Both the position numbers and the translations under genes were made by a program. The notes beneath the pieces were generated by a model, which made no database searches, was not told where the DNA came from, and was given only the letters and a program-made list of their open reading frames with translations. 64,000 bases of DNA from Polynucleobacter necessarius (GTDB lineage Bacteria; Pseudomonadota; Gammaproteobacteria; Burkholderiales; Burkholderiaceae): positions 823,823-887,822 of the forward strand of contig NZ_LT606948.1 in assembly GCF_900095185.1 (NCBI RefSeq), given 5' to 3'. Positions 1 through 63,490 of this stretch are shown in pieces (the first letter of the stretch is position 1; the number at the start of each line of letters is the position of its first letter).

Positions 1-744
1 CAAGAGCTGTGCCAGTGCTACCTTATTGGCACCCTCAGTTGCTGTCTCATAGGTCCAACGCCAACGGACGTGCCACAAGCAATGATATCGCCAGCTTCAA
101 GTGGCACATTCTGAGAGATCGGGCTTACCAGTTTTGCCGGCGGGCAGATCATATCTGCAATTAGGTAGTTTTGACGCTCTTGATCATTAAGAATGGTTTT
201 GATAGTCAGCTTATTTGGGTCTACATCGGTCGTGATGTAGAGACCAAAGACGCCAAAGGTCTTAAAACTCTTGGCGCGAGTCCACTGAGCATACCCAGGA
301 TCACGATTTAAGATTTCGATGGCTGTGACATCATTAATGCAGGTATAACCAACAATTGCTTTAGCCGCCTCTGCTTCATTGACTGCATGACAATGCTTGC
401 CGATTACAATACCCAACTCGCCTTCATCAACGACTTTTCCTGAATAGGATTTGGGGGTGTGAATAACTTGGTTTGCTGCCAAAAAGGAATTGTGTCCTTT
501 TAAAAAGTAAAGCGGCTCAGCAGGAACTGCATGCTCAAGCTTAGTGACCAATGCATGAAAGTTATCAACCATTTTGGACGGGGTGCATGGGATATCAATT
601 GTTACATCAGATAATTTAATGGTCTCGCCAGTTGCCTTAGGTCCGTTAAATAGGCCGCCATCGTAAGTGGCAATTTGATCTCCCTGTACTTGTTTGTCCT
701 AAAGCACTTTTTCCTTGATGTTGAAATTTGAGCCACTGAGCCAT
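1..744 (-). pseudogene. Fumarylacetoacetate hydrolase family protein, frameshifted and cut by the window edge
   Basis: The longest intact piece (18-572) has the FAH-fold features: VDEGELGIVIGKH, a metal-binding E-G-E-type segment, and ACGTSVGVG near the end. The family cleaves or hydrates C-C bonds in aromatic and keto-acid breakdown. The same frame continues upstream of the internal Met to about 700, where a TAG lies. The real N-terminus, MAQWLKFQHQGKSALG from an ATG at 742-744, is in another frame, so an indel lies near 695-705. At the 3' end the frame after GVGPM runs into a stop at about 18-20, while another frame continues as ETATEGANKVALAQLL to the window edge, so a second frameshift lies near 46-50. 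Two frameshifts in one gene argue for a true pseudogene. The substrate cannot be told from sequence. Confidence 0.8.
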
Positions 745-800
745 AAGGTGATCATATAAGGTTAAATATTTGATATGTAATATCTTACAGGGATAGATTG

Positions 801-1740
801 ATGTCAAAGTCTTCTGAGCTTACATTTGCACCAGAACAAGATCAGCCGGCATGCTATGTTGGAGCGCACCCGAAGCTATTATTTAGGCTTAGGATACGAA
901 AATCCCTAAGTATGGGCCCATTTCGTGAACGTCCCCTTTTTTCTCCTCTGAAAAAGCCACTTTCAGAGTCTGAATTGGGAATAATTACGACGGCAGCTCC
1001 CTATGATCCGGATAAAGGTCCTCAGGGTCAGGATGCGCCATACAACGCCGCCGCTAAGTTTTATCAACCATACAGTCAATCTGTGGGCGGTAAGAGCGAT
1101 CTACGAATTGTACATGTTGGCGTTGAACGTAAAAACGCCGATATGAAAGATAGCAAGTATTGGTTTCCTCTGGAAACTGCAGACAGAACGGTTAGCGCTG
1201 GCAGAGTAAAAGCGATTTCTTCGAATGTTTATGGTCTACCGACTAATTGGAGGCAGCGACATACATTAGAGACAGATGCCCATCTCGTGTTAGAAATGCT
1301 AAAAGCAGATGGTGTGGATGTGGCGGTATTAATTCCAAACTGCCCAATATGTCATCAGAGCCAAAGTTTGTTAGCGCGATATTTGGAGTCAGCGGGTATT
1401 TCCACTGTATTGATGGGCGCGGCCAAAGACATCGTGGAATATTGCGGAGTACCCCGTTTCTTATTTAGTGATTTTCCGCTGGGCAATGCCGCTGCAAAAC
1501 CGAATGACTTAGCATCGCAAGATATTAATCTTGACTTAGCTTTACGGCTGCTCGAATTAGCTCCAATCTGCCGCACTACCCGTTCAATCTCCATTAATTT
1601 GGTCTGAGGACCCTTCTTGGAAATTGGATTATTCAAATTTAGCCAAACTATCCAGTGGAGAAATTGCACGCTTACGTGAAGAATCTGAATTGGCACGCAT
1701 TACTGCACGTGAGCTCCGAGTTAGTAGCCTAGGAGCTTAA
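801..1740 (+). pseudogene. GrdB-like (glycine/betaine/sarcosine/D-proline reductase family) protein, multiply frameshifted
   Basis: The frame from ATG 801 shows the family features: PLKKPLSESELGIITTAAPY, a VLIPNCPICHQS motif at about residues 176-187 where clostridial GrdB carries selenocysteine, and AAKDIVEYCGVPRFLFSDFP. Homologues are common in Burkholderiales, and their role there is not established. Three places are broken. Between about 860 and 940 the ORF is out of the ancestral frame: the +1 frame there reads ERTRSYYLGLGYENP, a TAA at 907-909, then VWAHFVNVPF. Near 1577-1580 an extra C shifts the frame, because dropping it gives TTVQSPLIWSEDPSWKLDY and an open frame to TAA 1738-1740. 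The long ORF 798-1607 is therefore deceptive. The 3' end overlaps the ispB stop region by 4 nt. Confidence 0.85.
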
Positions 1741-2741
1741 GTTTGCCTTGTCAGAGAGTAGGTGCAAAGCTCCTGAAGAGCTTTACTAGCTTGGTTTGCT
1801 GGGAAGTCTTTAAGGCAGGAAAGCGCTAGGTCTGCTTCACGTTTAGCGGCTGCTTGTGTGTAATCGAGAGCGCCCGAGCTTTGAACTGCAGAGAGGATTT
1901 TGATAAACACATCATCTGGTAAGTCTTGATTTTGTTTAATTGTTGCGCGGACCAATAAGCGCTCTTCATTGCTGCCATTTTCAAGCAAATAAATCAGCGG
2001 TAATGTGGGCTTACCTTCGCGTAAATCATCACCAGCATTTTTCCCCATTTGAGCTGCGTTAGCGGTGTAATCTAGTAGATCATCCATTAACTGAAAAGCG
2101 GTGCCGATATGACGCCCGAATGCTGCTGCCCGCTCGCGTTGAGTATCTGAAGCGTTGGCGAGAATGGCCCCAAGTTCGGTAGAGGCCTCGAATAGTTTGG
2201 CAGTTTTGTAGCGAATCACTTGAAGGTAGCTGGCTTCATCGACTTCCGGATCATTCATATTGAGGAGTTGTAGTACCTCACCTTCAGCAATCGTATTGGT
2301 TGCATCTGACAGAATTTGCATGACTCGCAGGTCATTAGGCCTCACCATCATCTGAAAGGCTCGGGAATATAAGAAATCGCCCACTAAGACGCTGGCCGCA
2401 TTGCCGAATGCGGCATTTGCTGTCTCACGTCCTCTTCTGAGAGTGGATTCGTCGACGACATCATCATGAAGCAGGGTGGCTGTATGAATGAATTCCACGA
2501 CAGCAGACATTTCCAATGTGTGGGGCGTTTCCTGGCCATTGGCCAAAGCTTTGGCTACAAGCATCAATAGGGCGGGTCTAACCCGTTTGCCACCCGCTTG
2601 GATAATATAAGTTGAGATTTGATCGATTAAGGCAACTTTTGAGGTCAAACGCTGACGCATAACCTCGTCTAAGGCCTTGAAATCTAAGGCGATTGGGGCC
2701 AGAATTTGGCTTAAGGCATTGATTTTGACAGTGCTCGTCAT
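1737..2741 (-). CDS. ispB: Octaprenyl (all-trans polyprenyl) diphosphate synthase
   Basis: This enzyme extends farnesyl diphosphate with isopentenyl diphosphate to make the long side chain of ubiquinone. The 334-residue protein is full length. It shows GKRVRP at 51-56 for substrate diphosphate binding, the first aspartate-rich motif DDVVD at 93-97 and the second, DDLLD, at 220-224, all needed for Mg2+ and allylic substrate binding. It is divergent from rplU-rpmA, the usual arrangement in proteobacteria. Its start region overlaps the strong promoter of that operon, so transcription of the two may interfere. The exact chain length (C40 or other) cannot be read from sequence, and octaprenyl is assumed from the family. 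Confidence 0.95.
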   Translation of the reverse strand: MTSTVKINALSQILAPIALDFKALDEVMRQRLTSKVALIDQISTYIIQAGGKRVRPALLMLVAKALANGQETPHTLEMSAVVEFIHTATLLHDDVVDESTLRRGRETANAAFGNAASVLVGDFLYSRAFQMMVRPNDLRVMQILSDATNTIAEGEVLQLLNMNDPEVDEASYLQVIRYKTAKLFEASTELGAILANASDTQRERAAAFGRHIGTAFQLMDDLLDYTANAAQMGKNAGDDLREGKPTLPLIYLLENGSNEERLLVRATIKQNQDLPDDVFIKILSAVQSSGALDYTQAAAKREADLALSCLKDFPANQASKALQELCTYSLTRQT

Positions 2742-2816: not shown

Positions 2817-3128
2817 ATGTACGCGGTCATAAAAACCGGTGGCAAACAGTATAAAGTTGCTGCAGGCGAAAAATTGAAAATAGAACAGATACCAGCGGAA
2901 ATCGGCAGCGAAATCACTCTTGGCCAAGTCCTCGCCGTTGGCGAGGGCGCTTCACTGAAATTAGGTGATCCATTGGTTAATGGTGCAGCTGTGATGGCCA
3001 CTGTCGTCTCCCAAGGACGACACGATAAAGTGACAATCTTTAAGATGCGCCGTCGCAAGCATTATCAAAAGCACCAAGGCCATCGTCAAAATTTCACTGA
3101 AATTTTGATCAACACGATTAAAGCCTAA
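2817..3128 (+). CDS. rplU: 50S ribosomal protein L21
   Basis: L21 binds 23S rRNA in the large ribosomal subunit. The start [14 protein letters not shown] is the near-universal L21 N-terminus, so ATG 2817 is chosen over a possible in-frame start 15 nt upstream. The 103-residue length is normal. The C-terminal [16 protein letters not shown] segment is the typical basic rRNA-binding part. It is the first gene of a two-gene operon with rpmA, 19 nt away, behind a consensus promoter. Confidence 0.98.
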
Positions 3129-3147
3129 TTCAGGGTAGGAGAAAGAT

Positions 3148-5406: not shown

Positions 5407-5998
5407 TGAATGATGCTATATGAATGGCTTGGCTTAGTGCCGCCAGTAAATCCATTTGGGTTGCGTGATTGCAGAATTGTTTTGATATTTTTTTCTTGTA
5501 AATTGAAATTGCAAAAAGCACCCTGCGCTAGAGCGGCTTGATAGCGATTGGGGATATTGCTTTGTATTGTTTTCCAGCTGGATAATGGATTCTCCCTCCA
5601 AGGACTATTGTCAAAGATGCCATCAAGGCGCCATTGAAATGAATCACAGCGAATACCTTCATATTGCGCTTGCGTGCGCGCTTCCGCTTGGATTTGTCAT
5701 CACCACAATATAGCGCGCGTAACGCCATCTGCGCCGATCTGTATAGAGTCCGTCTCTACCGCAATAGAGAGACTGTATCTACCGCAAATTTGAAAATAGT
5801 ATGCTGGGAAATATAAAAAGGCACTAAGGTAGCTTGGTTGGGTGGGTTGAGGGGCATAGTGGTTGTGCCCTCCTTGAATATCATTGGCGTAAAAGGATCT
5901 AGTCCGCTTTGCAGGAGATCGCCTGTGCATACAGCTAATCCTGCGCCCATGATGGCGGCGCCAATGTAGGAGTAAGTCCGCTGGAATGAATTAGTCAT
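5403..5998 (-). pseudogene. CNP1-like family protein, pseudogene
   Basis: Starting at ATG 5996-5998 there is a signal-like N-terminus (YIGAAIMGAGLAVCTG), then FYISQHTIFKFAVDT. The reading then jumps frames: SIQIGADGVTRAIL in a second frame, VVMTNPSGSAHAS in a third, and QYEGIRCDSFQWRLDG onward to a TAA at 5403-5405. These blocks follow the order of the CNP1-like family, which in Burkholderiales commonly sits next to rppH. The function of the family is not known to me. The first frameshift is explained by a 23-nt tandem duplication. At least three frameshifts make it non-functional. Its start overlaps the rppH stop by 4 nt. Confidence 0.8.
5743..5786. repeat. Imperfect 23-nt tandem duplication
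   Basis: Two adjacent copies (5743-5763 and 5764-5786 on the plus strand) both end in CTACCGCA and begin ATAGAG. On the minus strand they encode AVDTVSL and AVETDSI in different frames. A unit length that is not a multiple of three explains the frameshift in the CNP1-like gene. Confidence 0.6.
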
Positions 5999-11733: not shown

Positions 11734-14718
11734 ATGACATACGCCAACCCACAGACAGCCGGCCAACCAGCTGGAACAAATAATCCTGGAATGAGCTCTG
11801 TTGGTGCTGTAAGTCAGACCCCTTCTGCCGGCTTTGTGGCTGGTGGCGTTGGGGGTACTCAGGCAACTCAATTGTCTGATTACAAAATCATTCGCCGCAA
11901 TGGATCAGTTGTTGCTTTTGAGCCATCTAAAATTGCGATCGCAGTAACTAAAGCATTTTTGGCCGTCAATGGTGGGCAGGGTGCCGCATCTGTACGTGTT
12001 CGTGAGCAAGTTGAGCAGTTAACGCACTCAGTTGTGCGAGCATTACTCCGTAGCCGACCAAACGGCGGAACTTTTCACATTGAGGATATCCAGGACCAAG
12101 TTGAGTTGGCCTTGATGCGGAGCGGTGAGCATAACGTTGCCCGCGCCTATGTTCTTTATCGTGAGAAGCGCAATCAAGAACGTGCTGTTCAGCAAGAAGT
12201 TTCACAAGAGTCTCAAGCAGCCAACCAAGCTGGTGAGACTGACATCAAGGTAACCGATAACGGTGTTGAAAAATGGCTTGATATGGCCGCTTTGCGTACA
12301 GTCATTGAAGCTGCTTGCGAAGGTTTAGGCACCCGCATCGACACCACTCCAATCATCACGGAGATGATTAAGAATTTGTACGATGGCGTACCAATGGCGC
12401 AAGTCTACGACGCTGCCATCTTGGCTTCCCGTACCTTGATTGAACAAGATCCCGCATACAGTCAAGTGACAGCACGTATTTTGATGCATGTAATTCGTAA
12501 AGAAATTCTTGGTAAAGAAGTGTTGCAGGGTGATATGCAAGCTGAGTACAGCACCTATTTTGCTAAGTACATCAACGAAGGTATTTCTGCAGAATTGCTA
12601 GATCCACGTATGCGTGAATTCGATTTGCCGCGCTTGGCCGGCGCTTTGAACGCTAGCCGTGATCTACAATTTAACTACCTCGGCTTGCAGACTTTATATG
12701 ACCGTTATTTCTTGCATATTGAAGAACGTCGCATTGAAATGCCACAAGCTTTCTTTATGCGCGTAGCAATGGGCTTGGCACTAAATGAGTTGGATCGTGA
12801 GCGTCGTGCAATCGAGTTTTATGAAATCCTCTCCACTTTTGATTTCATGTCCAGTACTCCAACCTTATTTAACTCAGCAACCACACGTCCACAGCTCTCT
12901 AGCTGCTACTTAACGACTGTGGATGATGACTTAGATGGTATTTACGAAGTGCTTAAAGCAAATGCTTTGTTATCTAAATTTGCTGGTGGCTTGGGTAATG
13001 ACTGGACTAATGTGCGTGCATTAGGAAGTCACATTAAGGGCACTAACGGCAAATCACAGGGTGTTGTTCCATTCCTCAAGGTGGTAAACGACACAGCTGT
13101 TGCTGTGAATCAAGGTGGTAAGCGTAAGGGCGCTGTTTGTGCCTATTTGGAAACATGGCACTTAGACATTGAAGAATTCTTGGAGTTGCGTAAAAACACT
13201 GGTGACGATCGTCGCCGTACCCACGATATGAACACTTCTAACTGGATTCCTGACTTGTTCATGAAGCGAGTCATGGAAAACGGAGATTGGACATTATTTT
13301 CCCCATCAAATACTCCAGATTTGCATGACAAATACGGTAAGGCGTTTGAAGAGGCCTATGTTGCATATGAGCAAAAGGCAGATCGCGGCGAATTGAAGTC
13401 ATTCCGTCGCATTCCAGCGCAGCAACTATGGCGCAAGATGCTTGGTATGCTGTTTGAAACTGGTCATCCATGGATCACTTTCAAAGATCCATGCAATATT
13501 CGTAGCCCGCAGCAGCATATTGGCGTAATTCACTCATCTAATCTTTGTACTGAGATTACTCTCAATACACATGAGAGTGAGATTGCAGTTTGTAACCTAG
13601 GTTCCGTGAACTTGACGGCTCACATGACTACCGACGCTAATGGCAAGATGATTTTGGATCACGAGAAGCTCCAAAAAACAGTGCGTACGGCAATGCGTAT
13701 GTTGGATAACGTGATTGACATCAACTACTACGCAGTAGCTAAAGCGCGTAATTCCAATTTGAAGCATCGTCCAGTTGGAATGGGCATCATGGGCTTCCAG
13801 GATTGTTTGCATATGCAACGCATTCCTTACGCTAGCGAAGATGCTGTAAAGTTTGCTGACTCTTCTATGGAAGCGGTTTGCTACTACGCGTATCAGGCTT
13901 CCAATGAGTTGGCAGAGGAGCGCGGCGTTTACAGCACCTATAAAGGTTCTTTATGGGATCGTAGCATCCTGCCACAGGATTCAGTGGCAATGTTGGCGGC
14001 TGAACGTGGCGGCTATGTAGAAGTAGATAGCTCATCCACGATGGATTGGAGTGGTTTGCGTGCACGTATTAAGCAGCACGGTATGCGCAACTCTAATTGT
14101 GTGGCAATTGCACCAACAGCAACGATTTCAAACATCATAGGTGTTTCAGCTTGTATTGAGCCTACATTCCAAAATTTATTTGTGAAATCTAACCTTTCTG
14201 GCGAATTCACCGTAGTAAACGAGTATTTAGTTCGTGATTTGAAGGATCGCGATCTCTGGGATGAGGTGATGATTGCTGACTTGAAATACTTTGACGGCAC
14301 CTTGTCTAAGATCGACCGCATTCCACAAGATTTGCGTGATCTATATGCCACAGCCTTCGAGGTTGAGCCGAGCTGGTTAGTAGAGGCAGCTTCCCGTCGA
14401 CAAAAATGGATTGATCAAGCCCAGTCACTCAATATTTATATGGCTGGTGCCTCTGGTAAGAAGCTGGATGACACTTATAAATTGGCATGGTTGCGCGGTT
14501 TGAAAACAACTTACTATCTCCGCACTATGGCTGCAACCCACGTTGAGAAATCAACCGTTACTAGTGACCAGCTGAATTCTGTTTCCAGCGGTGGTGGCGT
14601 TAACGGCACCGATGTTGCTGCATCAAGCGCTGCTGGAGGCGTTGAAGCAGCGGATGGCCCGGTTTGTACAATGCGCCCCGGTGATGCTGTGTTCGAAGAA
14701 TGTGAAGCATGCCAATAA
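11734..14718 (+). CDS. nrdA: Ribonucleoside-diphosphate reductase class Ia, alpha subunit
   Basis: NrdA reduces ribonucleoside diphosphates to deoxy forms using a radical supplied by NrdB. The start is supported by AGGAG five bases upstream of the ATG. After a low-complexity N-terminus, an ATP-cone begins near YKIIRRNGSVVAFEPSKIA (about 50-140), giving allosteric activity control by ATP and dATP. LSSCYLTTVDDDLD and NLCTEITLNTHESE contain active-site cysteines, and the C-terminal CEACQ carries the redox-shuttle pair. The 994 residues are long for class Ia enzymes because of the N-terminal extension. The 3' neighbour is nrdB, 44 nt away, and tandem NrdR boxes precede it. Confidence 0.97.
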   Translation: MTYANPQTAGQPAGTNNPGMSSVGAVSQTPSAGFVAGGVGGTQATQLSDYKIIRRNGSVVAFEPSKIAIAVTKAFLAVNGGQGAASVRVREQVEQLTHSVVRALLRSRPNGGTFHIEDIQDQVELALMRSGEHNVARAYVLYREKRNQERAVQQEVSQESQAANQAGETDIKVTDNGVEKWLDMAALRTVIEAACEGLGTRIDTTPIITEMIKNLYDGVPMAQVYDAAILASRTLIEQDPAYSQVTARILMHVIRKEILGKEVLQGDMQAEYSTYFAKYINEGISAELLDPRMREFDLPRLAGALNASRDLQFNYLGLQTLYDRYFLHIEERRIEMPQAFFMRVAMGLALNELDRERRAIEFYEILSTFDFMSSTPTLFNSATTRPQLSSCYLTTVDDDLDGIYEVLKANALLSKFAGGLGNDWTNVRALGSHIKGTNGKSQGVVPFLKVVNDTAVAVNQGGKRKGAVCAYLETWHLDIEEFLELRKNTGDDRRRTHDMNTSNWIPDLFMKRVMENGDWTLFSPSNTPDLHDKYGKAFEEAYVAYEQKADRGELKSFRRIPAQQLWRKMLGMLFETGHPWITFKDPCNIRSPQQHIGVIHSSNLCTEITLNTHESEIAVCNLGSVNLTAHMTTDANGKMILDHEKLQKTVRTAMRMLDNVIDINYYAVAKARNSNLKHRPVGMGIMGFQDCLHMQRIPYASEDAVKFADSSMEAVCYYAYQASNELAEERGVYSTYKGSLWDRSILPQDSVAMLAAERGGYVEVDSSSTMDWSGLRARIKQHGMRNSNCVAIAPTATISNIIGVSACIEPTFQNLFVKSNLSGEFTVVNEYLVRDLKDRDLWDEVMIADLKYFDGTLSKIDRIPQDLRDLYATAFEVEPSWLVEAASRRQKWIDQAQSLNIYMAGASGKKLDDTYKLAWLRGLKTTYYLRTMAATHVEKSTVTSDQLNSVSSGGGVNGTDVAASSAAGGVEAADGPVCTMRPGDAVFEECEACQ

Positions 14719-14762
14719 GCTAGTTGCTTATTGACTATAAAGAGAATAATTAGGAGACAGTT

Positions 14763-15947
14763 ATGTTGAACTGGGAAGAGGAAGTTGCTCCAGCACTAGC
14801 GAAAGCTGGTCTTGCCCCGGAGTCGGTTGTAGTGGAGCCACAACGCCCACAGTTAGATCAAGTAGCAATTGCGCTACAAACTGCTGCACCAGAGCCAATC
14901 CCCGCTGCAAATTTATCTGGTGGTGCATCCTTGCGTGTAAATGCTGCTGATAAGCGAGTGATCAATGCTAAGACTGATGTAAATCAGCTGGTTCCATTTA
15001 AATACAAGTGGGCTTGGGAAAAGTATTTGGCTGGTTGTGCAAACCATTGGATGCCTCAAGAGATCAATATGAACCGCGATATCGCGCTTTGGAAAGATCC
15101 AAACGGCCTGACGGAAGACGAGCGTCGCATTATTAAACGTAATCTTGGTTTCTTTACAACTGCTGATTCTTTGGCTGCAAACAACATTGTTTTGGGTACC
15201 TATCGTCACATTACCGCTCCAGAGTGTCGCCAATACCTATTGCGCCAAGCTTTCGAAGAGGCAATTCACACCCACGCATACCAATATATTGTGGAATCTT
15301 TGGGTTTAGATCAGTCCGAAATCTTCAATGCGTATCATGAGATAGAGTCTATTCGCGCTAAAGATGAGTTCTTAATTCCATATATTGATGTGCTGACCAA
15401 CCCCAATTTCAAGACTGGCACATTAGAAGCTGATCAAACTTTGCTTTGTTCGCTCATCGTTTTCGCTTGCGTGATGGAAGGATTGTTCTTTTATGTTGGT
15501 TTTACGCAAATACTTGCGATGGGTCGTCAGAACAAAATGACGGGTGCTGCTGAGCAGTATCAATACATCCTTCGCGATGAGTCAATGCACTGTAATTTTG
15601 GTATTGATTTGATTAACCAAATCAAGCTGGAGAACCCGCAGTTATGGACTGCTGCGTTCAAAGATGAGATCAAATCCATCTTTGAAAAGGCGGTTGAATT
15701 AGAGTACCGTTATGCCGAAGATACGATGTCTCGCGGAGTGCTCGGATTGAACGCTCCGATGTTCAAAGGGTATCTAAGATACATTTGTAATCGCAGATGT
15801 TTGCAAATAGGACTTGACGCGCTGTTCCCAAATGAAGAGAATCCATTTCCATGGATGTCAGAAATGATTGATCTGAAAAAAGAACGAAACTTTTTTGAGA
15901 CACGCGTTATTGAGTATCAAACCGGTGGTGCGCTTAGTTGGGAGTAG
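14763..15947 (+). CDS. nrdB: Ribonucleoside-diphosphate reductase class Ia, beta subunit
   Basis: NrdB holds the di-iron tyrosyl-radical cofactor. Carboxylate and histidine ligands appear in order as [24 protein letters not shown] (E and H) and [12 protein letters not shown] (E and H). The 394-residue length includes an N-terminal extension of about 60 residues ahead of the ferritin-like core, which begins near [15 protein letters not shown]. The C-terminal peptide that docks into NrdA ends in GGALSWE. AGGAGA precedes the ATG. It is cotranscribed with nrdA. Confidence 0.97.
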
Positions 15948-16094
15948 TAAGACTGTAATAAGGCGCACAACTGGCTAAATAGGAGATTAGACGGTTGGAT
16001 AGTTGTAGTAGTCAGCAAAACCAGACTCAAATCCGAAAACCCTTCCTCAAGGGTGCCAGGGCTATTCTCTCTATTTTTTTCAGCACATTTCAGA

Positions 16095-21896: not shown

Positions 21897-22424
21897 CTAT
21901 AAAGCGTTTTTAATAGCACTTCTTAGTTCATCTTCGCTTATCTTGCCTAATTTGCTATAGGTTGCTTTTCCCTTTGCACTGATGATGATGGTATAGGGTA
22001 AGGCTCCTTGGGAGCTTCCTAATTGTTTGGAAAGGCTGCTACCTTCCAATCCGCCTATCACAATTGGATCGGAAACTGGAGTTTCTGAAAGAAAATCACG
22101 AATATTAGAGGATGAAGCGATACCAATGCCAACAAATAAGACATTTTTTTGTAAAAAATCTTGTTGAAGCTTATCTAATGTAGGCATTTCCTCGACGCAA
22201 GGGGGCACCAAGATGACCAAAAGTTGACCACAAGCACTTTCCCTTGCCATTTTTGAATTTCAACTGCTTTTCCATCCGGAGTTTGCCAAGAATTGCCTAA
22301 AAAGGCTTTTACAGGAGGAGCGTTTGCTAAACCAGTTTTATAGGATCCACTGCGAAGTGAGGACGCCGGCAAGGAGTGCTAAAAGACTAATTGTGACGAT
22401 GATCATCCATTGTTTGCGGTTCAT
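21897..22424 (-). pseudogene. TlpA/ResA-like thioredoxin-fold protein, pseudogene
   Basis: From ATG 22422-22424, behind a GGAG site, the frame reads MNRKQWMIIVTISLLALLAG, a membrane anchor. It is then shifted near 22340 to YKTGLANAPPVKAFLGNSW and KVLVVNFWSSWCP. The frame breaks again inside the active site: a G5 run at 22201-22205 should be G6 to give WCPPCVEEMPTLDKLQ, the frame that then continues to the stop at 21897. The intact family makes periplasmic disulfide reductases for cytochrome c maturation and similar tasks. With two frameshifts, one between the two active-site cysteines, it cannot work. Confidence 0.88.
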
Positions 22425-22450: not shown

Positions 22451-23852
22451 ATGCATATACATATTTTGGGCATTTGCGGTACTTTCATGGGCGGCATTGC
22501 CGCAATTGCGAGACAGGCTGGACATCGTGTTGCTGGTTGTGATGCCAATGTGTATCCACCCATGAGTACGCACCTTGAGGCTCAAGGCATCGAACTAATT
22601 GAGGGGTTCTCGCTGCATCAATTATCTCAGTTTGAGACCATGCCTGATTTATTTGTGATTGGTAATGTGGTTTCTCGCGGCAACCCTTTGATGGAGGCGA
22701 TTCTTAATCAAGGCTTGCCTTATATTTCTGGACCGCAATGGTTGGGCGAGCAAGTTTTGTATGGAAGGCGCGTTCTTGCAGTAGCTGGAACACACGGTAA
22801 AACTACTACCTCAGCCATGCTCACTTGGATTTTAGAATTTAATGGCTATAAACCAGACTACCTGATTGGTGGTGTACCACTGAATTTCACTGTCTCTGCG
22901 CAATTGAGCGAGAGTAAATATTGTGTCATCGAAGCCGACGAGTACGACATGGCATTTTTTGATAAGCGCAGTAAGTTTGTCCACTATCGCCCACGTACAG
23001 CATTGCTCAATAACTTAGAGTTTGATCACGCTGAGATTTTTTTTGAGCTTGCAGCAATAAAAACACAGTTTCATCATTTGGTGCGGACCGTTCCCGGGGA
23101 TGGCTTATTGGTAGCCAATGGTGAGGAGCCTGCCTTAGCCAGTGTAATTTCGAGGGGGGCTTGGGCTCCTGTTGAACGTTTTGACCAGGAGTCTACCAAC
23201 GAATGGTGTTTGATTTCACAAGAAATCGATGGTTTTATTATGCGCAAGTCTGGCAAGGAGGTTGCAACTGTGCAGTGGTCGCCTGATTCTGGTGTGATAG
23301 GGGCGTCATAATCAATTCAATGCACTTGCTGCTATCGCTTCTGCAAACCATATTGGCATTTCGCCGGCGGACTCAACTCATGCATTGGCTGAGTTTAAGA
23401 ATGTTAAGCGTCGTTTGGAAACAATTGGCGTTGACAATGACATCACAATTTATGATGACTTTGCGCATCATCCAACTGCGATTACTACAACCGTTGATGG
23501 TCTTCGTCGTCGTGTGGGCAAGGCGTGTATCTTAGCTGTGCTCGAGCCACGTTCTAACACGATGAAGCTCGGCGTGATGAAGGCCCAGCTACCTGGAAGC
23601 TTACAAGCGGCAGATAAGGTATTTGCCTATGGCGCTAGTACAGGAAAGGAATCATTGGGTTGGGACTTAGCAGAGGTCCTATCCCCGCTGAATGTAAACA
23701 ACCAAGATAAAGCTAGGGCGTTTGATGACCTAGAGGTTTTGGGTGATGCAGTCATTCTAGAAGCTAATCTAGGCGATTAGATCTTGGTGATGAGTAACGG
23801 TGGATTCTGCGGCGTTCATTAGACAATATTAAAAGCTTTATCAAAGCAGTAA
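22451..23852 (+). pseudogene. mpl: UDP-MurNAc:L-Ala-gamma-D-Glu-meso-DAP ligase Mpl, pseudogene
   Basis: Mpl re-uses the murein tripeptide released in recycling. The N-terminal Rossmann part (MHIHILGICGTFMGGIAA) and Mur ligase P-loop (VAGTHGKTTTSAML) are intact in the first frame. That frame stops at about 23311 because G4 at 23300-23303 should be G3. The next frame restores GRHNQFNALAAIA and continues through KRRLETIGVDN and YDDFAHHPTAI. This part then meets a TAG at 23778-23780, reads on as ILVMSNGGFCGVH, meets another TAG at 23820-23822 and ends TILKALSKQ at TAA 23850-23852. Three lesions of two kinds make this a true pseudogene. It is divergent from the broken TlpA-like gene. Confidence 0.92.
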
Positions 23853-24645: not shown

Positions 24646-26697
24646 ATGAATCTTTTATACGAAGAGGGTGGTGACATCAAGATTGCCACAGCTCAATCTG
24701 CATCGGGCACAGGGGATGCGGAGTCTTGGCAGGCTACAAGCCTTTCTGGAAAAAAAATTAAGCTCAAGGCCAAAGAGGTTTGGTTGCGTTTTGAAAAGCC
24801 AGAGGCTCAAGCGGCCATGGATGAAGCGGGTAAGCTCACTGCAGATATTGATTTACAGTTTCTTTGGGATTGTGCATCAGACGAAGAGTTTGGTTTGGTC
24901 GATGTGGCTAAGGAGTACTTTGGTTCACAAGCAAGTGTTCCACAGCAAGTTGCGTTAGCGATTGCTTTGCAAGGTGTCCCCGTATTTTTTCGTCGTAAAG
25001 GGCGTGGCCGTTTTCAAAGAGCTCCGCTGGAGCAATTGCAGGCTGGCTTGGCTGCATTAGAGCGCAAGCAAAAAGAACTCGAACAGCAATCGTTGTGGCA
25101 ACAAGAGCTAGTCTCAGGATATGTTCCTGAATCGCTGAAATCTTCCGCCAAGCAACTATTGTTTGCTCCCGATAAACATACTTCGGCCTATAAGGCATTG
25201 ATTGCTGCTTGTGCTGAGACTGGAGAATCGCCTGCGCAACTCATGATTCGATGTGGCGCTATTGATTCGCCATTGGCATATCACCAGGGCTTGTTTCTTA
25301 AGACGCGTTTTCCAAATGGTGCAGCTCATCAAAGTGATATTGGCATTGATAAAGCGGCTTATGCCGCTGCAGTCGCAGAGCTGCCGTTTGCCCAAGTACA
25401 AGCCTTCTCGATTGATGATTCTGACACCACTGAAATAGATGATGCGTTATCAGTTACGGTAATTGACGGTGGACATCGGGTGGGAATTCATATTGCTGCC
25501 CCAGGTTTGGCGATCTCCAAAGATGATCCATTGGCTAAGGTGGCTCGTAATCGCATGTCGACAGTTTATTTTCCCGGCGACAAAATTACGATGTTGCCAG
25601 AATCAGTGATTGAGCAATTTTCACTGGATGAAGGTGGGCCAAGACCTGCATTATCGATTTATGTCGATATTGATGCGCAAGGCGTTGCAAATCGAGATAC
25701 CCTTCAGATGCGTACGGAGATGGTGCCAATGACATCTAACCTCCGTCTAGAGGATATCGAGCATCTCGTAACCGAAGAGAGCTTTCTTGATGAGAGTTCT
25801 GGATATCCCTATCGCAATGAATTAGCGATCTTATGGCAAGCTGCTAAATTGCTTTATGCTGCTCGCCAAGAAAAGCGTATTGCAAATGGATTACGTGCCG
25901 AGCAATTGGGCTTAATAGATTCAAATGCGCTAGCAAGAGATTTTCATTTTCAGATTCAGGAGGTGGCTGGCGTTCAGCGCGTCGATATTGTGCCGCGTCA
26001 ACGAGGGTCTATCCTGGATACGATCGTCGCTGAATGGATGATTTTTTGTAATAGCGCCGCAGGGCAGTTGCTTGCGGACTATGGCTTGCCTGGGCTATTT
26101 AGAACTCAGAAAGGCTGGGGTCCATTACGCACTCGTATGCAAACTACCCCTGGGCCCCACGAAGGTCTAGGTCTCGATTATTACGCTTGGTGCACCTCTC
26201 CACTGCGTCGGTATTCAGATTTAGTGAATCAATGGCAATTAATCGCTCTCGTAAAGCATGGAGTTACTGCAAAGATGGTTGCCCCATTTTCACCTCGGGA
26301 TGCAAGTTTGATGGGTATTGCAGCAGACTTTGAATCTTGTTATCAGACCTATGGTGAGTTCCAGGATCGTTTGGAAAAGTATTGGTGTCTACGTTGGGCT
26401 GTGCAGAATGGGGAACCTAAATCCTTTCATGTTCGCCACTTAAAAGCAGGTATGTCTCGCTTGGAATTAGTACCTCTACATTTGCCTATTCCTGAGCTTG
26501 CAAGTCATCCTCGTATGACTCGAGCTGAAGTGCTAATTGCAGACGTCGATTTATTGCAATTGAGCGCAGGTGTGCGAGTGATAGAAATTGAGTCAAAGCA
26601 GGATTTCCCCGAACAGCCTCTTGAGTGTGAGGCGTCAGTTAGTCCCGGCACTTTGGCAGTAGCAGAACGTCCCGAAGAAGATGCTAGTCCAGAGTAA
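24646..26697 (+). CDS. RNB-domain exoribonuclease (RNase II-like)
   Basis: This is a 683-residue 3'-5' exoribonuclease of the RNase II/R superfamily. The catalytic acidic cluster FSIDDSDTTEIDDALSV at 254-270 is intact, as are YFPGDKITMLPE and the C-terminal CTSPLRRYSDLVNQWQL. The N-terminal region lacks an obvious cold-shock domain pair, as in the Burkholderiales RNB type that is neither classical RNase II nor RNase R. The TonB-like gene starts inside its last codons, overlapping by 17 nt. Confidence 0.88.
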   Translation: MNLLYEEGGDIKIATAQSASGTGDAESWQATSLSGKKIKLKAKEVWLRFEKPEAQAAMDEAGKLTADIDLQFLWDCASDEEFGLVDVAKEYFGSQASVPQQVALAIALQGVPVFFRRKGRGRFQRAPLEQLQAGLAALERKQKELEQQSLWQQELVSGYVPESLKSSAKQLLFAPDKHTSAYKALIAACAETGESPAQLMIRCGAIDSPLAYHQGLFLKTRFPNGAAHQSDIGIDKAAYAAAVAELPFAQVQAFSIDDSDTTEIDDALSVTVIDGGHRVGIHIAAPGLAISKDDPLAKVARNRMSTVYFPGDKITMLPESVIEQFSLDEGGPRPALSIYVDIDAQGVANRDTLQMRTEMVPMTSNLRLEDIEHLVTEESFLDESSGYPYRNELAILWQAAKLLYAARQEKRIANGLRAEQLGLIDSNALARDFHFQIQEVAGVQRVDIVPRQRGSILDTIVAEWMIFCNSAAGQLLADYGLPGLFRTQKGWGPLRTRMQTTPGPHEGLGLDYYAWCTSPLRRYSDLVNQWQLIALVKHGVTAKMVAPFSPRDASLMGIAADFESCYQTYGEFQDRLEKYWCLRWAVQNGEPKSFHVRHLKAGMSRLELVPLHLPIPELASHPRMTRAEVLIADVDLLQLSAGVRVIEIESKQDFPEQPLECEASVSPGTLAVAERPEEDASPE

Positions 26698-27563
26698 AGC
26701 GTTGGAAATACCGTGTCCTGAGTGGCTTGGAGCAGTGTTCCGCTATCTTCATAGTGCATGGAAACGTTACCCATTTCGTTTTGCACTTTGCATATCTATT
26801 TTGATTCATGTTTTTTCTATCTTTTCACTGGGGGCTTGGGGAGATTCAACACCGTAGAGTAAACACACCATTAAGTGTGGTGCTAGTAAATGCCAGTAAT
26901 AAGATTCCGCCACAAAATGCAAATAAGCTGTCACAAGCAGATTTGCAAGAAGCTACTGCATTACACCGTGCTCGCTTAGGCGCTGAAGCCCGCCTTGAGA
27001 TGTTGGAGAAGCAACAAAAGCAGATGCTCGCAAAATTAGACGAGCGGCGCAATCACTCTGGAGGTCGAAAAAGTGGTGATGAGCAAAAAATTACCCCTCA
27101 ACTGAATTCATTGGAAGCTGAGTTAGCTAAACGACTCCAATCAGAGGGCAAAGAACCTAGGCGTAAAGTCCTGACTGGCGCTAACATCAAGGCAGTAACT
27201 TTTGCTCACTACTACGATGCCATGTGTCAAAAGATTGAAACCTACGGCAGTGCATTTTTCCCAAGGGTATATGGGCGCCCTTTATATGGCAGTCTGATCA
27301 TTGTTATTAGCGTAGATAACCAAGGCAGAATTACAGCGAATGCTCAAGGCAAAGATGGGCTCTCAATAGGCTGTAGTTCGGATAATCCAGAGTTAGATCG
27401 GCAAGCCCTCGCTATTGTCAGAGCTTCTGCGCCGTTTGGCCCCTTTCCTCCAGAAATGCGTAATCAAATCGATGTATTGGATTGGATCTCTACCTTTGAG
27501 TTCACTCGAGATGGCATAGATCGTCTCGAGCTACGACGCCAATCAAGCCATCAAGAGAATTAG
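26681..27563 (+). pseudogene. TonB-like energy transducer, frameshifted
   Basis: From ATG 26681 the frame reads MLVQSKALEIPCPEWLGAVF, then a membrane helix (FALCISILIHVFSIFSLG), and stops at TAG 26854-26856. The rest lies in another frame: RVNTPLSVVLVNASNKIPP, a coiled-coil stretch rich in Q, K and E, and a TonB-type C-terminal domain (PLYGSLIIVISVDNQGRI, RASAPFGPFPPEM). The shift falls in the G-rich bases 26830-26850. The membrane anchor and the periplasmic domain are therefore separated and the protein cannot transduce energy. A weak internal start at 26808 would give only the anchorless part. Confidence 0.85.
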
Positions 27564-36293: not shown

Positions 36294-37067
36294 TTATAAA
36301 TCGCCTCTTTTGAGGCGATTTTGCATTTCAGCATTCCATACACTATGCACTGTTGTAATGGCAACAACACCGGCAGTTTCAGTTCTCAGCACCCGCTCAC
36401 CCAAAGAAACAAGTTGATAGCCAGCAGCTTGTGCTTGCTTTGCTTCCTCAGGAGAATGACCCCCCTCTGGGCCAATCATAAGAACAAGATCTTGAGGAAT
36501 ATTTTCAAGCAGTACTGAGTAGATACTTTTGGTAGCGTCTGGACTTAATAAGAGTTTGAGAGCGGGCTTTGAGCTTGCCTGCAAATAGGCGTCAAATGTT
36601 TGAATGGACTCTAGGCTGGCACAAATGGTTCGATCGCATTGTTCGCAGGCGGCTTGAATAATGCCCTCCCAATGGTTGAGACGCTTATGGACACGCTCTT
36701 GATCGCTAGCCCGAGTGAGTTTCAGGATAGAACGCTCGCATTGCATGGGGGCAATATTTTGAGCGCCCGTTTCTACCGCTTTTTCAATAATCCAGTCCAT
36801 TTTGTCGCCACCTGCTAAACCTTGGGCTAATGTAATTGCATAAGGAGTCTCTCTATGGGTATCCATCCGGATTTCAGACAGCTGTACTTGACCAGTGTTG
36901 CCGCTCAAAGATAGAAGGTCTCCTTTGGCAACCTGGCCTTTGCCATCAAATACCGGGAAAAATTCCCCAAGTTGGATGCGGCGAACGCGCAAATGGTGGG
37001 CAACCTCAGGTGTGAGGATAGTTGGCTTTTGGGATTGCCATGGTCCGGGAAGATAAAATTGAGGCAT
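36294..37067 (-). CDS. rsmE: 16S rRNA (uracil-1498-N3)-methyltransferase
   Basis: RsmE methylates U1498 in 16S rRNA and belongs to the SPOUT knot methyltransferases. The 257 residues have an N-terminal PUA-like part ([21 protein letters not shown]). The catalytic core has [35 protein letters not shown] and [16 protein letters not shown], the conserved SAM-binding end. It is intact. Its last codons are built from a terminator hairpin that also serves the opposite strand. It is divergent from tkt with 44 nt between them. Confidence 0.95.
36298..36322. terminator. Bidirectional hairpin terminator
   Basis: AAATCGCCTC pairs with GAGGCGATTT around a TTTT loop, with T-rich flanks on both strands. 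It separates the barstar remnant from rsmE and overlaps the last codons of rsmE. Confidence 0.75.
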
Positions 37068-42373: not shown

Positions 42374-45076
<2,703 letters not shown>

Positions 45077-53869: not shown

Positions 53870-53942
53870 AACCCCTATATTAGGGCTTCTTGAGAAGAAA
53901 TGCAGGGGCAAAGCCTAGTCTGTCAGGTTAAGATTCAATGTA

Positions 53943-56367: not shown

Positions 56368-57327
56368 ATGAGTCAGTCAGTGAATCAATTTAATGCGGCT
56401 GGAGAGTTGACTCATCTTCTGACCCTTGAGGGCCTTCCAAAGGAGCAAATTCTCCATATTTTGGATGCTGCAAAGCAGTTTGTGAGTGTCACAGACCCTG
56501 CGCGTGAAGTAAAAAAAGTGCCACTGCTTCGAAGTAAAAGTGTCTTCAACCTTTTCTTTGAAAATTCCACTCGTACGAGAACAACCTTTGAGATCGCTGC
56601 CAAACGTTTATCAGCAGATGTAATTAATTTAGATATTTCTACATCCTCCACCGCTAAGGGCGAAAGTTTATTGGATACGATTGATAACTTAGTAGCAATG
56701 CAAGCGGATATCTTTGTGGTTCGACATGGCGTTTCTAGGGCACCAATTGAAATAGCGAATCACTTACCAGCCCATGTTCACGTAGTTAACGCTGGTGATG
56801 GTAGCCACCAACATCCAACCCAAGGCTTATTGGATATGTATACCATGCGTCACTTTAAGCAAAACTTTAAGGGCTTAAAGGTCGCAATTGTGGGCGACAT
56901 CGTACATAGCCGGGTGGCGAAATCGAATATTCATGCGCTCACTACTTTGGGTTGTGAAGATATTCGTGCCATTGGCCCGGAAAGCTTATTGCCAAGCGAT
57001 TTCAATATGCTTGGTGTGAAGGTATTTCATAGCATAGAAGAAGGTTTGAAAGATGTAGACGTTGTGATGACCTTGCGCATTCAGAAAGAGCGTATAGAGA
57101 TAGGTCAAGTTCCAGAAGGTGATGCGTTCTTTAGGCAATATGGCTTAACTCCAAACCGTCTCGCTTTAGCAAAAGCAGACGCAATTGTGATGCACCCTGG
57201 TCCCATGAATCGTGGAGTAGAGATTGATTCGGCAGTAGCAGATGGTCCGCAGTCAGTCATCTTGAATCAAGTGACTTTTGGTATTGCTGTGCGGATGGCA
57301 GTAATGTCAATTGTGGCTGGTAATTAA
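56368..57327 (+). CDS. pyrB: Aspartate carbamoyltransferase catalytic subunit
   Basis: PyrB joins carbamoyl phosphate and aspartate in pyrimidine synthesis. ATG 56368 ([14 protein letters not shown]) is chosen with GAGGGGTGAG upstream, rather than an earlier GTG. Its 319 residues contain the carbamoyl-phosphate loop [13 protein letters not shown] at 63-75, [35 protein letters not shown] and [13 protein letters not shown]. It is intact. The dihydroorotase-like pyrC/pyrX gene that often follows is not here. A glycosyltransferase remnant lies downstream instead. Confidence 0.96.
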
Positions 57328-58202
57328 ATCGGTAATTGCTGTAGCTATGTGCTGATCAAAATTAATATGGCTATCCAGTATTAATTCGTCTTGAGCAGCA
57401 GCGCTAGAGTGCTCTAAATTATTGCTGATTACACCATGAAATTGGCATAGCTTTGATAAGCCAAACATTTGTGCCCATGAATTATTTCGATGAGGGTTGA
57501 TTTCTAAAACCTGGACGTCGTCGTTTAAAAACAGAAGATTAAGCACCCCGCGGCGCCAACCATGTAAGTAAAAGTCTTCGCACTAGCTAATGTATCTAGA
57601 TAATCCTTAAAGCTCAGCTTGGATAAAACCACCTGCTCAATATTTAATAAATTTTTACGACTAAGTTCGTTTCGTCCATAAATCAAATTTTTAGTTCGGA
57701 TTTCAGTAATATCGTGCTTGGCAAAACAGATTGATTTGATTTCCCGATAAATTTTTTGGTAATCGGGATAAATCTGTAAATCTCTCCCCTCGGGGTCATA
57801 ATCAAGTCAGAGAAACTATAAGCAGTTTTGTGGTTTAAAAATATTAAATTGCTAGTGTCGAACACTGACTCTAGGAACTCTCTTTGAAATGCATTGCCTT
57901 TAATTGATACGCAGACTCACTTTTTATTATTTCGCCACTGAAGATAAAAAGAAAAAAATACGTCATGAAAAAAATGGGAAATATTGTCCGTATGAATGAT
58001 GAGTAGATAAAAAGCTTCACCTTCAAGGTTTTTTGTCTTGGGTTCAAACGGCAATAAAGACTATCTGCGAATGATAGTGAACTCGATCATTTTTTGCCGA
58101 TAATGTCTTTTTGGCAAACAGCTGATCTTTATAGAGAATGAAGCTAGCACTGCCCGCTATGGAAACAAACAATTTTTGGAAGCGGTCTTTAATTTTTAGC
58201 AT
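57307..58202 (-). pseudogene. GT61/DUF563-family glycosyltransferase, pseudogene
   Basis: This 960-nt stretch without a long ORF is a broken gene. From ATG 58200-58202 the frame reads MLKIKDRFQKLFVSIAGSAS and HYHSQIVFIAV, then stops. Another frame carries EGEAFYLLIIHTDNISHFFH, and another MFDTSNLIFLNHKTAYSF. GRNELSRKNLLNIEQVVLSK and SFKDYLDTLASAKTFTYMVG follow. After a shift near 57545 come NLLFLNDDVQVLEINPHRNN and WAQMFGL. The order matches GT61 enzymes, which end in a nucleotide-sugar site resembling this last part. At least three frameshifts and two stops are seen. It lies at the edge of the glycan region. Confidence 0.75.
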
Positions 58203-60540: not shown

Positions 60541-61496
60541 TGATTTCAAAGCCACTCATCAGCGTGCTGATGCCCGCATACAACTCGGAGTTGTATATCG
60601 CTGAGGCCATCAATAGCATCTTGCAGCAAAGCTATCAGAACATAGAGTTGCTCATTTTTGACGATGGATCTACTGATAAGACTCGACAAATCATTGAAAG
60701 TTTTGGTGATCCTCGTATTGTGAAGATCTTGTCTGACCAGAATTATGGTGTGATCAAAGCGCGTAATGAGATGATCGATAGAGCAGGCGGTCAATATATC
60801 GCCCTTATGGATGCTGACGATATTGCTGATCCTACGCGCCTCGCGAAGCAATTACGAAGCTTAGAGCTAGGCGAATGTGATTTATGTGGAAGTGCCCAAT
60901 GGGTTTTGGATGAGGCTTCTGGAAAACTGAAGAAGTCAAAAGATAAATTTACTGATTCAGACTTGCGAGCACTTTTAACCGTCTATTGTGGCTTGTGTAA
61001 TTCTGCCATGATGGGAAAAGTAGAAATTTTTAAAAGATTTAAGTACGATACTTCCATATTAACTTCTGAAGATTATTGCTTATGGGTGCAGATGGCAGCT
61101 ACTGGATATCGTTTTATTAATTTGAAAGAGCGATTGATTACGTATCGGCGTTATCCTGCGCAAACCAGCTCTGTACACCTCGATAAATTTAGAGTTACCA
61201 CAATTGAGGTGCAAAAGAAGTACTTAGATCTTCTCGGAATTTCTGCGGCACTTTATCCGCGTCAATTGCCATGGCCCAAAAGATTAGGTGTCGGAATGAA
61301 TTTATTACGCGCTTTAAATAAGAAATTTCCAGGCGTTTCTTTTCGAGCAAATTCGGAGATCTATGCTCGCTTTCAGTTTAGACGTAATAGATGGTGGACG
61401 CCATTGACGCGCTTAGAGCGTTTCTTCATCAGTCTTTGGATCACCCTCTGTAATTCGGTCACTACAGCATCCCCTTGCAGATGGCTCTTTATTTGA
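60540..61496 (+). CDS. GT2-family glycosyltransferase
   Basis: The 318-residue protein starts with the GT-A pattern ISVLMPAYNSELYIAEAINS and ILQQSYQNIELLIFDDGSTD. The DxD-like site is ALMDADDIADPTRLAKQ, and the C-terminal acceptor part has YDTSILTSEDYCLWVQMA. The last 41 codons overlap the end of the convergent remnant at 61373, and the tail (SVTTASPCRWLFI) may be unconserved, so the original C-terminus may have been altered. It is the third gene of the run. Confidence 0.85.
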   Translation: MISKPLISVLMPAYNSELYIAEAINSILQQSYQNIELLIFDDGSTDKTRQIIESFGDPRIVKILSDQNYGVIKARNEMIDRAGGQYIALMDADDIADPTRLAKQLRSLELGECDLCGSAQWVLDEASGKLKKSKDKFTDSDLRALLTVYCGLCNSAMMGKVEIFKRFKYDTSILTSEDYCLWVQMAATGYRFINLKERLITYRRYPAQTSSVHLDKFRVTTIEVQKKYLDLLGISAALYPRQLPWPKRLGVGMNLLRALNKKFPGVSFRANSEIYARFQFRRNRWWTPLTRLERFFISLWITLCNSVTTASPCRWLFI

Positions 61497-62481
61497 TCTT
61501 GCGACAGTTCTGATGGCAAGCCAGATACCTCAAGTAGGCGATTTGCGCCTCGATAGGCATACCACATTTTCGGCATGATCTTCATTTGTTGGTTCAACAA
61601 CCCTGCTAAGTGGCTCATTCCACTTTTTGAGCCTATCAATATGTCGGCGTTCAACAGATAGTAAAACGAACTCATAACATCGCTGTCAATACATTCATGA
61701 ACTTCATGTGGGGTGTTTTGAAAATAGGCTTTCCAGGAAACAGCTTGTCCACTTTCAGAGTGATAGATTCCATCTCTGCCTTCGCTAAAGATGTAAATTG
61801 CAATTTGCTGTTGAGTATTGCGTAAAATCATATTGAGGATTTCTAAATACTGCGCATCTGGGAGCATTCTAGAAGAGAGATCTGAGAACTGTTGTCCTAG
61901 CAACAAATCTCCTCGGCGAAGATGTACGGCAATATTTAATTTATTTGGATCGTAGAAGAGGTGAATAGGATGTTGCTCTCGAGCTTTTGCATAGGCATTC
62001 AACAACCATTCTCTAGTGGACACATATTCATAATCGCCAAAGCGATTATTACTGAGTTTGAAAGCGACATTAGGCTCGAGATGATTTTAAATGAACTGAT
62101 CTATAGATTTCATCAGTATTTTACTCGTTAGAGGGGATATGAATCTCAAAAAGGGGGTAATTCGATTAGCTTGATTGCACCACCCCGAATTTGATTTTCA
62201 ACCTCCTCGCGACTGGGTGGTAACGCTATTGGGTTGAGCATTACGTTGAGACCATTCCCAATATGATGGGTTTCGTTTGCCTTGCGCCTTCTGAGCTTGG
62301 GCAAGGTTTGCTTAAGGCGCCATTTAAAGGACTGATGATGAGAGTTTGTGAGCTGGGTCTCTGAATAAGCGAATTGCAGTTGATTGCGATCGGCAATTTT
62401 GAGTGCTCGATTCAAAATACCTATCGAATGACCAATACCTGCATCAGGATTATCGTAATCTAGAATAAAGCGATTAGACAT
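61373..62481 (-). pseudogene. Fucosyltransferase-like (HLRRGD motif) glycosyltransferase, pseudogene
   Basis: ATG 62479-62481 starts MSNRFILDYDNPDAGIGHSI, which overlaps the GT10 stop by 8 nt. The frame breaks after IELPPF near 62150: the next frame has FEIHIPSNE and a TAA. Farther on another frame has KSIDQFI, a TAA, then NHLEPNVAFKLSNNRFGDYE and runs into STREWLLNAYAKA and LNIAVHLRRGDLLLG. The HxRRGD motif binds GDP-fucose in GT11- and GT23-type enzymes, so a fucosyltransferase is the likely ancestor. DILIGSKSGMSHLAGLLN is the conserved C-terminal part. Lesions near 62150 and 62080-62130 make it non-functional. Confidence 0.8.
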
Positions 62482-63490
62482 GCTTGAGGTCTTTAAGAAT
62501 CTTGCTAATAATCGTTGACACGTAAGTTGTGGTATCAAACTCCATTGCTTTAGGAGATGTTAGAAATTCACGAATGTATTCTTGGTATTTTGTATAATGC
62601 TGTGCATTGATGCTCAATAAGAAGCGGTGTACTTCCGCAGTATTCTTAAAGTCTCTTCTATCAATAAAACAGGACTTAGGAATGTGATGTGTGATCGTAT
62701 TCGAGCCCCAGTAGACTGGAACGCATCCCCCAAAGAAGCAATCAAAGATTTTTTCACTAATGTAATCAGGCAGATTGGCTACGTTTTCATAGCAATAGGC
62801 AAACTTCGTTTTTCGATAGATCAATTCTTTATCTTCTACTTCCCCTGCATAACTTGGAAAGGGTTTATAGCCTATGAGTTGGGTCGCTAGTCTTTTGAAG
62901 CGTCTTGATACTTTTTCAGATGCGGTAAAGCCTGGTTCAGGCTTGCTCCACCCTAGACCAAATAGTGAGAAATATTGAGGTGCATGGGATTCGTACCAGC
63001 GAATCACTTCTAAACGTTCCCGATAGAGATCATTTTCAAGACTTTTTGGAAATGCTTTATTCGCATTGATGATGCAGGAAAAAATCGGTCTTTCAGCGAA
63101 AGAGGGTGTGACTTGATTGCGTATTTGGTTGGGAATGAAGACGTGGCTGATATTTGGGAGGCTTGTAAAGTCGGCCTTCCAAGTAAACACCCCATCAAAC
63201 TGACTAAGGTAACCCTCATCTTGATTACGAGGGCAAATATAGGGGTTTTCGGTAGCAATGAGATACTTTGGGCCAGAAATTTGATCTAAAGGCTGACCGT
63301 CATGCAAAATACTAAAAGCGATTTCTCGACCCTCGTTGACATCTGGATTATTTAACTCAATCCCATGCTTCAGAAATTCTGCTCTAAGCAATCTATTGGT
63401 AAAGGTTGGGTTATAGGTATGATGTCTATCGATTTCCTCAAAAGAGGCATTTTTTACCCTATCACGTTGATAGTAATTGGCAAATAACAT
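62474..63490 (-). CDS. GT10-family (alpha-1,3-fucosyltransferase-like) glycosyltransferase
   Basis: A 338-residue protein with the GT10 signature FAYCYENVANLPDYISEKIF then DCFFGGCVPVYWGS, followed by IPKSCFIDRRDF, all in the C-terminal half where GDP-fucose binds. The N-terminal half includes LIATENPYICPRNQDEGYLS. Known members transfer fucose in Lewis-type or O-antigen structures. Here the acceptor is unknown. It is intact and was coupled to the broken HLRRGD gene, which overlaps its stop by 8 nt. Confidence 0.85.
   Translation of the reverse strand: MLFANYYQRDRVKNASFEEIDRHHTYNPTFTNRLLRAEFLKHGIELNNPDVNEGREIAFSILHDGQPLDQISGPKYLIATENPYICPRNQDEGYLSQFDGVFTWKADFTSLPNISHVFIPNQIRNQVTPSFAERPIFSCIINANKAFPKSLENDLYRERLEVIRWYESHAPQYFSLFGLGWSKPEPGFTASEKVSRRFKRLATQLIGYKPFPSYAGEVEDKELIYRKTKFAYCYENVANLPDYISEKIFDCFFGGCVPVYWGSNTITHHIPKSCFIDRRDFKNTAEVHRFLLSINAQHYTKYQEYIREFLTSPKAMEFDTTTYVSTIISKILKDLKHV

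Follow-up and report, generated by a model that had tools for sequence, protein, structure and literature searches.

The window analysed here is a stretch of 64,000 nucleotides (nt) from a closed Polynucleobacter chromosome (genome G000, contig C1, positions 823823-887822, plus strand; 1,655,757 bp with a completeness rating of 100%), in which broken genes of accessory function lie among open core genes. LeuS assigns the window to Polynucleobacter with 93% identity to strain UK-Gri1-W3, in agreement with the genus named in the initial annotation. The chromosome, at 1.656 Mb, is smaller than those of three relatives of 1.90-2.17 Mb that were used as yardsticks, and the window holds twelve damaged loci when it is read against them.

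Comparison with relatives

The list of damaged loci was rebuilt from orthologues in G004 (2.02 Mb), G024 (1.90 Mb), G002 (2.17 Mb) and a second reduced genome, G017 (1.55 Mb), each compared over the collinear region. The three larger genomes are presumed to be free-living because their genes are open. Positions 47-57,327 of the window align with G004 in two long pieces at about 80% nucleotide identity and with a small net deletion. Since the pairwise nucleotide alignment is full of paired compensating indels in diverged genes, damaged genes were counted with a protein-guided caller, in a strict version (tblastn with G004 proteins, 54 genes) and a looser version (55 genes conserved in G004 and G024). 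Matches that continue out of frame past a shift inflate the stop counts, and the broken verdict for shifted genes is unaffected by this. The damaged loci, followed by two intact core loci, are listed below with lengths in amino acids (aa).

24..744, minus strand: pseudogene of the fumarylacetoacetate-hydrolase (FAH) family (PF01557), 255 aa in G004; a single 4-nt insertion near codon 16, with a 184-codon frame still open
798..1737, plus strand: probable pseudogene, D-proline reductase PrdB-like (TIGR04483 below cut-off), 312 aa in G004; a single frameshift near codon 258, with a 269-codon frame still open
5412..5998, minus strand: pseudogene of a CNP1-like protein (PF08750), 187 aa in G004; three insertions near codons 75-99
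21900..22424, minus strand: pseudogene of a TlpA/ResA-like thiol-disulfide protein, 175 aa; two single-nt indels separated by about 47 codons, stops lying between them
22451..23849, plus strand: pseudogene of mpl (murein-peptide recycling ligase), 466 aa, first fragment over the TIGR01081 cut-off; a frameshift near codon 283 and stop codons beyond
26681..27536, plus strand: pseudogene of a TonB C-terminal-domain protein, 295 aa; a single frameshift near codon 47, with a downstream 251-codon frame still open
28503..29160, plus strand: pseudogene of mtgA (monofunctional peptidoglycan transglycosylase, TIGR02070), 251 aa; an 86-nt deletion and several frameshifts
32114..33134, minus strand: pseudogene of thiL (thiamine-monophosphate kinase, TIGR01379), 340 aa; a single frameshift near codon 154
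33241..35522, plus strand: pseudogene of an NADP-dependent malic enzyme (NF009501), 773 aa; three stop codons and deletions of 30 nt and 7 nt
35654..36273, plus strand: ambiguous, barstar-family gene (PF01337), 206 aa in relatives
57310..58202, minus strand: pseudogene of a glycosyltransferase 61 (GT61)-like surface gene, 307 aa and intact in G090, G013 and G096 (intact homologue matched by PF04577); a frameshift, and numerous stops in the aligned frame that are probably in part out-of-frame readings
61475..62481, minus strand: pseudogene of a surface-cluster gene without a Pfam match, 341 aa and intact in G090, G013 and G049; split over two or three frames, with a stop
11734..15947, plus strand: nrdA and nrdB, intact core genes
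42404..45076, plus strand: leuS, intact core gene

Damage counts and controls

The strict caller flags 12 of the 54 genes in the window, none in G024 and two in G002, namely rsmE (a start artefact) and a glycosyltransferase-like gene with a stop at residue 3. The same genes in G017 give nine broken and one absent. The looser caller flags 13 of 55 window genes, adding the FAH-hydrolase gene, and leaves 42 open. Subtracting three artefacts from the thirteen yields ten damaged loci in the collinear part, to which two loci of the surface cluster, detected via other relatives, are added; the GT2-like and GT10-like genes next to them are open. The twelve loci comprise ten firm pseudogenes, the probable PrdB-like one and the ambiguous barstar-family gene. 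The initial annotation had counted thirteen pseudogenes; the erosion that it described is real, and no thirteenth locus was found.

Seven loci carry several lesions (CNP1-like, TlpA-like, mpl, mtgA, malic enzyme and the two surface genes) and four carry a single frameshift (FAH hydrolase, PrdB-like, TonB-like and thiL). The lesions include stop codons, single-nt and 4-nt shifts, a 23-nt insertion and deletions of 7, 30 and 86 nt. Three candidates were rejected as damaged genes. The octaprenyl diphosphate synthase gene ispB (1737..2741, minus strand) is intact and had been flagged through an over-extended reference start, an open reading frame antisense to rplU (2955-3257) is a strand artefact, and rsmE (36294..37067, minus strand) is intact, its flag reflecting a choice of start; the same stop is present in G002.

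The core genes fared as the initial annotation had described. Open genes that match their families include rplU, proS, leuS, nrdA, nrdB, hemL, accB, accC, pyrB, pyrF and pyrR, and the window also holds open copies of obgE, ffh, prmA, aroQ, aroE, corA, tkt, gap, fur, dapB, holA, proA and proB, together with lptE-, bamE- and ruvX-like genes. In the stretch surrounding leuS the protein-guided caller finds 18 of 20 genes open in L001, L009 and L012, the remaining two being cut at the locus ends, and 17 of 20 in L010, where one gene is cut, one is the rsmE artefact and one has a stop at residue 158.

Selection on damaged and undamaged genes

Selection was gauged by the ratio of nonsynonymous to synonymous codon changes (N/S) unique to one genome where two others agree. 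Changes were counted from base-level, frame-corrected alignments, excluding codons within three bases of a gap. In nine damaged collinear genes the ratio is 0.35 for G000 (168/476) versus 0.10 for the G024 copies (38/363), and in 42 other genes it is 0.20 for G000 (487/2401) versus 0.11 for G024 (209/1847). Taken as a group, the damaged genes thus show an increase in nonsynonymous change of about threefold, and the other genes one of nearly twofold. The stop codons left in the 42 other genes (12 in G000, 8 in G017 and 1 in G024) are partly alignment noise and rejected artefacts.

Gene by gene, the unique changes in G000 are 12/43 for the FAH hydrolase, 12/43 for the PrdB-like gene, 7/19 for CNP1-like, 17/16 for TlpA-like, 20/85 for mpl, 21/61 for TonB-like, 12/26 for mtgA, 27/30 for thiL and 40/153 for the malic enzyme; seven of the nine genes differ in direction from their G024 copies. 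The ratios of mpl and the malic enzyme resemble those of undamaged genes, which suggests a possibly recent loss, and the damage to the TlpA-like gene and thiL appears older. Of the four genes with a single frameshift, the FAH hydrolase, TonB-like and thiL have a raised nonsynonymous share; the PrdB-like gene is classed as only a probable pseudogene because its ratio is not raised and its 269-codon frame is open. The numbers of damaged and lost genes and these ratios make genome erosion with relaxed selection well supported.

Damaged genes are also less conserved between the yardsticks, with a median amino-acid identity between G024 and G004 of 89.3 versus 94.2 for the others (p = 2e-5). They are largely those lost in the second reduced lineage as well. 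Both results support the view that decay tracks dispensability, in line with the initial annotation's statement that decay follows function.

Adjacent region and parallel loss

The comparison was extended to the adjacent 200 kb, where 143 genes are open in both G004 and G024. In G000, 85 of them are open, 49 broken, 7 absent and 2 partial, so that 58 of the 143 conserved genes are broken, truncated or absent; the window is more mildly decayed than this neighbouring region. The same genes in G017 give 88 open, 35 broken, 13 absent and 7 partial. Before filtering for openness in G024 the longer region held 299 G004 frames; 76 of them had no homologue in G024, which showed flags in 9 of the remaining 223.

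Losses in the two reduced genomes overlap strongly. Among 195 genes (198 minus three artefact genes), 45 are lost in both, 23 in G000 only, 18 in G017 only and 109 in neither (odds ratio 11.8, Fisher p = 3e-13), and mean gene length hardly differs in this comparison. In 194 circular shifts along the gene order the shared losses averaged 21.9 and peaked at 35; because no shift reached 45, clustering alone is not the cause of the overlap.

The 45 common losses, together with an identical one-nucleotide shortfall in the barstar-family gene, could be taken to mean that G000 and G017 descend from one ancestral symbiont and inherited their losses. This is very unlikely. In a tree of 16 genes (5,770 codons), G017 joins L012 (UK-Kesae-W10) with support of 96 for protein and 98 for DNA, and the two sit in a clade with support of 100 that leaves out G000. 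Frameshifts can be placed in both genomes for 13 genes; in 12 of these they lie at different positions, the barstar-family gene being the sole exception. A common stop listed at residue 294 of one gene (at position 86159 in G004) was rejected, as it proved to be an out-of-frame reading in G017. The position of G017 in the tree and the differing frameshift positions thus indicate that the losses are mostly parallel. The tree also puts G000 apart from L008, the record named P. necessarius (PPGSP2), which represents a different lineage; other reduced genomes were left out of the tree, in which the placement of G000 is weak. G000 is probably also distinct from strain STIR1, whose genome has about 1.56 Mb.

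G017 resembles G000 in that many genes, among them thiL and the TonB-like gene, are lost in both, and differs in its branch, in carrying mostly other lesions and in that its malic enzyme, mpl and mtgA genes are unflagged.

Thiamine genes across the genus

In a set of ten genomes, thiL is full length and without stops in seven, lies in two pieces in G000 and three in G017, and is open in the genome of L008, where it is matched only from residue 21. In the same set thiC is uninterrupted and over cut-off in seven genomes; the G017 copy has eight stops, the one in the genome of L008 falls into two pieces and that of G000 is fragmentary. Across 186 genomes of the genus thiC has a match in 163, above cut-off in 158. 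Some of the 23 genomes lacking a match are rated 99-100% complete, so absence of thiC alone is no mark of a symbiont. As a side observation, G268 (the genome of L008, judging by coordinates), G309, G310 and G023 are single-contig genomes with thiC in pieces or with a stop, and they are possible further symbionts.

The barstar-family gene

Relatives carry the barstar-family gene as a frame of 206 codons. G000 and G017 have one nucleotide fewer in the run of G that precedes A6 near codon 55. Among 101 genomes 93 match the gene, and the frame change near codon 55 occurs in G000 and G017 only; of these matches, G021 and G105 have the gene in pieces on separate contigs and 14 distant genomes are matched only from about residues 30-54 onward. 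A pattern search of 186 genomes finds 105 with the long form and two with the short form (within two mismatches), the remainder having neither. The gene is open in five of seven small or thiC-damaged genomes.

The junction of the short form reads GGA AAA AAG TGA, with an in-frame A AAA AAG heptamer directly before the TGA, and this stop overlaps the GTG of the downstream frame (GTGA). According to excerpts of PMC5009743, A AAA AAG shifts far more readily in E. coli than do four other heptamers, and it is the shift site of dnaX. Changes unique to G000 number 3 nonsynonymous and 5 synonymous before the site and 3 and 29 after it; those unique to G017 number 6 and 5 before and 8 and 34 after. Purifying selection is therefore visible after the shift site in both genomes, but not before it in G017.

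Synonymous diversity among the 30 best of the 93 matches is 0.006-0.10 in codons 41-80, compared with 0.34-0.44 from codon 91 and 0.24-0.37 across codons 11-40 and 81-90; it is low in codons 1-10 too (0.010). The resulting low-synonymous stretch of about 120 nt corresponds to window positions 35774-35892, inside the gene, encloses the shift site and is only 82-84% identical in L010 and G016. A lax Rfam scan of 35774-35892 gave no match. The consensus of the 30 relatives has an open -1 frame between about codons 40 and 82, and an overlapping gene was rejected because this frame is interrupted in L010, L005 and G017.

One tentative and rather doubtful explanation is that the same one-nucleotide loss survived in two separately reduced lineages because expression tolerates it, the inhibitor domain still being made through -1 frameshifting or through a restart at the overlapping GTGA. 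The low-synonymous stretch may have held a translational signal as early as the ancestor. Counter-evidence to recoding comes from the folding of the junction, whose predicted structure is not more stable than shuffles (z = +1.37, with 188 of 200 shuffles folding at least as well), and from the lack of an upstream Shine-Dalgarno-like motif on inspection by eye; the losses may also be recent. A frameshift in a retained gene may likewise be compensated during expression in Buchnera and Blochmannia, although the route there is transcription slippage at long poly(A), as excerpts of PMC5009743 describe it, and the site here is A6 with a dnaX-type A AAA AAG. A literature search combining Polynucleobacter and barstar found no paper, nor did one for six accession numbers.

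Other features of the window

An apparently non-coding conserved segment of nearly 290 nt (15955-16240) lies between nrdB and the gene for a Lys/Pro/Ala-repeat protein, with stops in the frames inspected. Rfam at the gathering threshold gives no match over the window, this segment included, and laxer scans give three matches below threshold (E 0.036-0.98) next to the segment near nrdB. No lysine tRNA gene was found in the window or in 280 kb of additional G000 sequence that was scanned. The orthologue of a photolyase gene that is open in the window is broken in G017.

Interpretation

The window very probably belongs to the chromosome of a Polynucleobacter strain that is in the middle of genome reduction, most likely as a host-restricted symbiont, probably of a ciliate. 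Under this interpretation a small effective population size, together with provisioning by the host, would relax selection. Drift could then inactivate genes for cell-wall recycling, thiamine synthesis, redox accessories and surface glycans, and genes for translation and for deoxynucleotide, haem, fatty-acid and pyrimidine synthesis would remain under purifying selection.

Work by Boscaro et al. from 2013 and 2017 is said to concern symbiotic Polynucleobacter of Euplotes. As far as excerpts of PMC11253213 describe them, Euplotes symbionts of this genus have reduced genomes of 1.7-1.8 Mb with many pseudogenes, several origins from free-living relatives and drift-like substitution. G000 shares with the symbionts so described the genus, a reduced genome, many pseudogenes and a raised nonsynonymous rate in undamaged genes; it differs in a size slightly under theirs. 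The initial annotation had attributed the decay to a switch to host-bound life. The erosion that it described is borne out here, with relaxed selection, and the switch itself is the best reading and fits that account.

Several observations weigh against this interpretation. No host gene or 16S comparison links G000 to Euplotes. In the stretch around leuS, L008 is open in 18 of 19 genes, the last (thiL) lying at the locus edge, so strains called P. necessarius need not resemble G000. In the tree G000 groups with G004, L001, G024 and G002, its exact place being weak (82 for protein, 69/55 for DNA). N/S is not raised in the PrdB-like gene (12/43 versus 7/27 in G024) or the CNP1-like gene (7/19 versus 7/17). 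The gene set of the longer region was selected as open in G024, which is hence not an independent control there. A photolyase gene, not an obvious need inside a host, is open at 52397-53911.

A free-living strain undergoing streamlining and ordinary pseudogene turnover has little probability as an alternative. Several genomes of the genus do span 1.6-1.9 Mb (lifestyle not given), but none and two of 54 genes are flagged in G024 and G002, streamlining removes DNA where the broken genes here stay nearly full length across 57 collinear kb, and undamaged genes too have raised N/S. An otherwise intact free-living genome in which sequencing or assembly errors account for most indels is scarcely credible, for although five of the twelve loci (FAH hydrolase, PrdB-like, TonB-like, thiL and barstar-family) have one frameshift and no stop in the aligned frames, the stops of the malic enzyme and mpl, the 86-nt deletion and the 23-nt insertion are present, the displayed shift contexts are mostly not long homopolymers, the N/S of the nine damaged genes exceeds that of their G024 copies, and random errors would also strike the 42 of 55 conserved genes that are open.

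Reduction by drift after host restriction is already described for Polynucleobacter, to the extent that excerpts of PMC11253213 cover it, and the reduction of G000 is most likely a good example of this known process. With close yardsticks, sequence alone confirms a genome in the course of reduction, and the comparison puts numbers on parallel loss in two lineages. The barstar-family gene is a ‘pseudogene’ that may still be expressed, and this can be put to the test.

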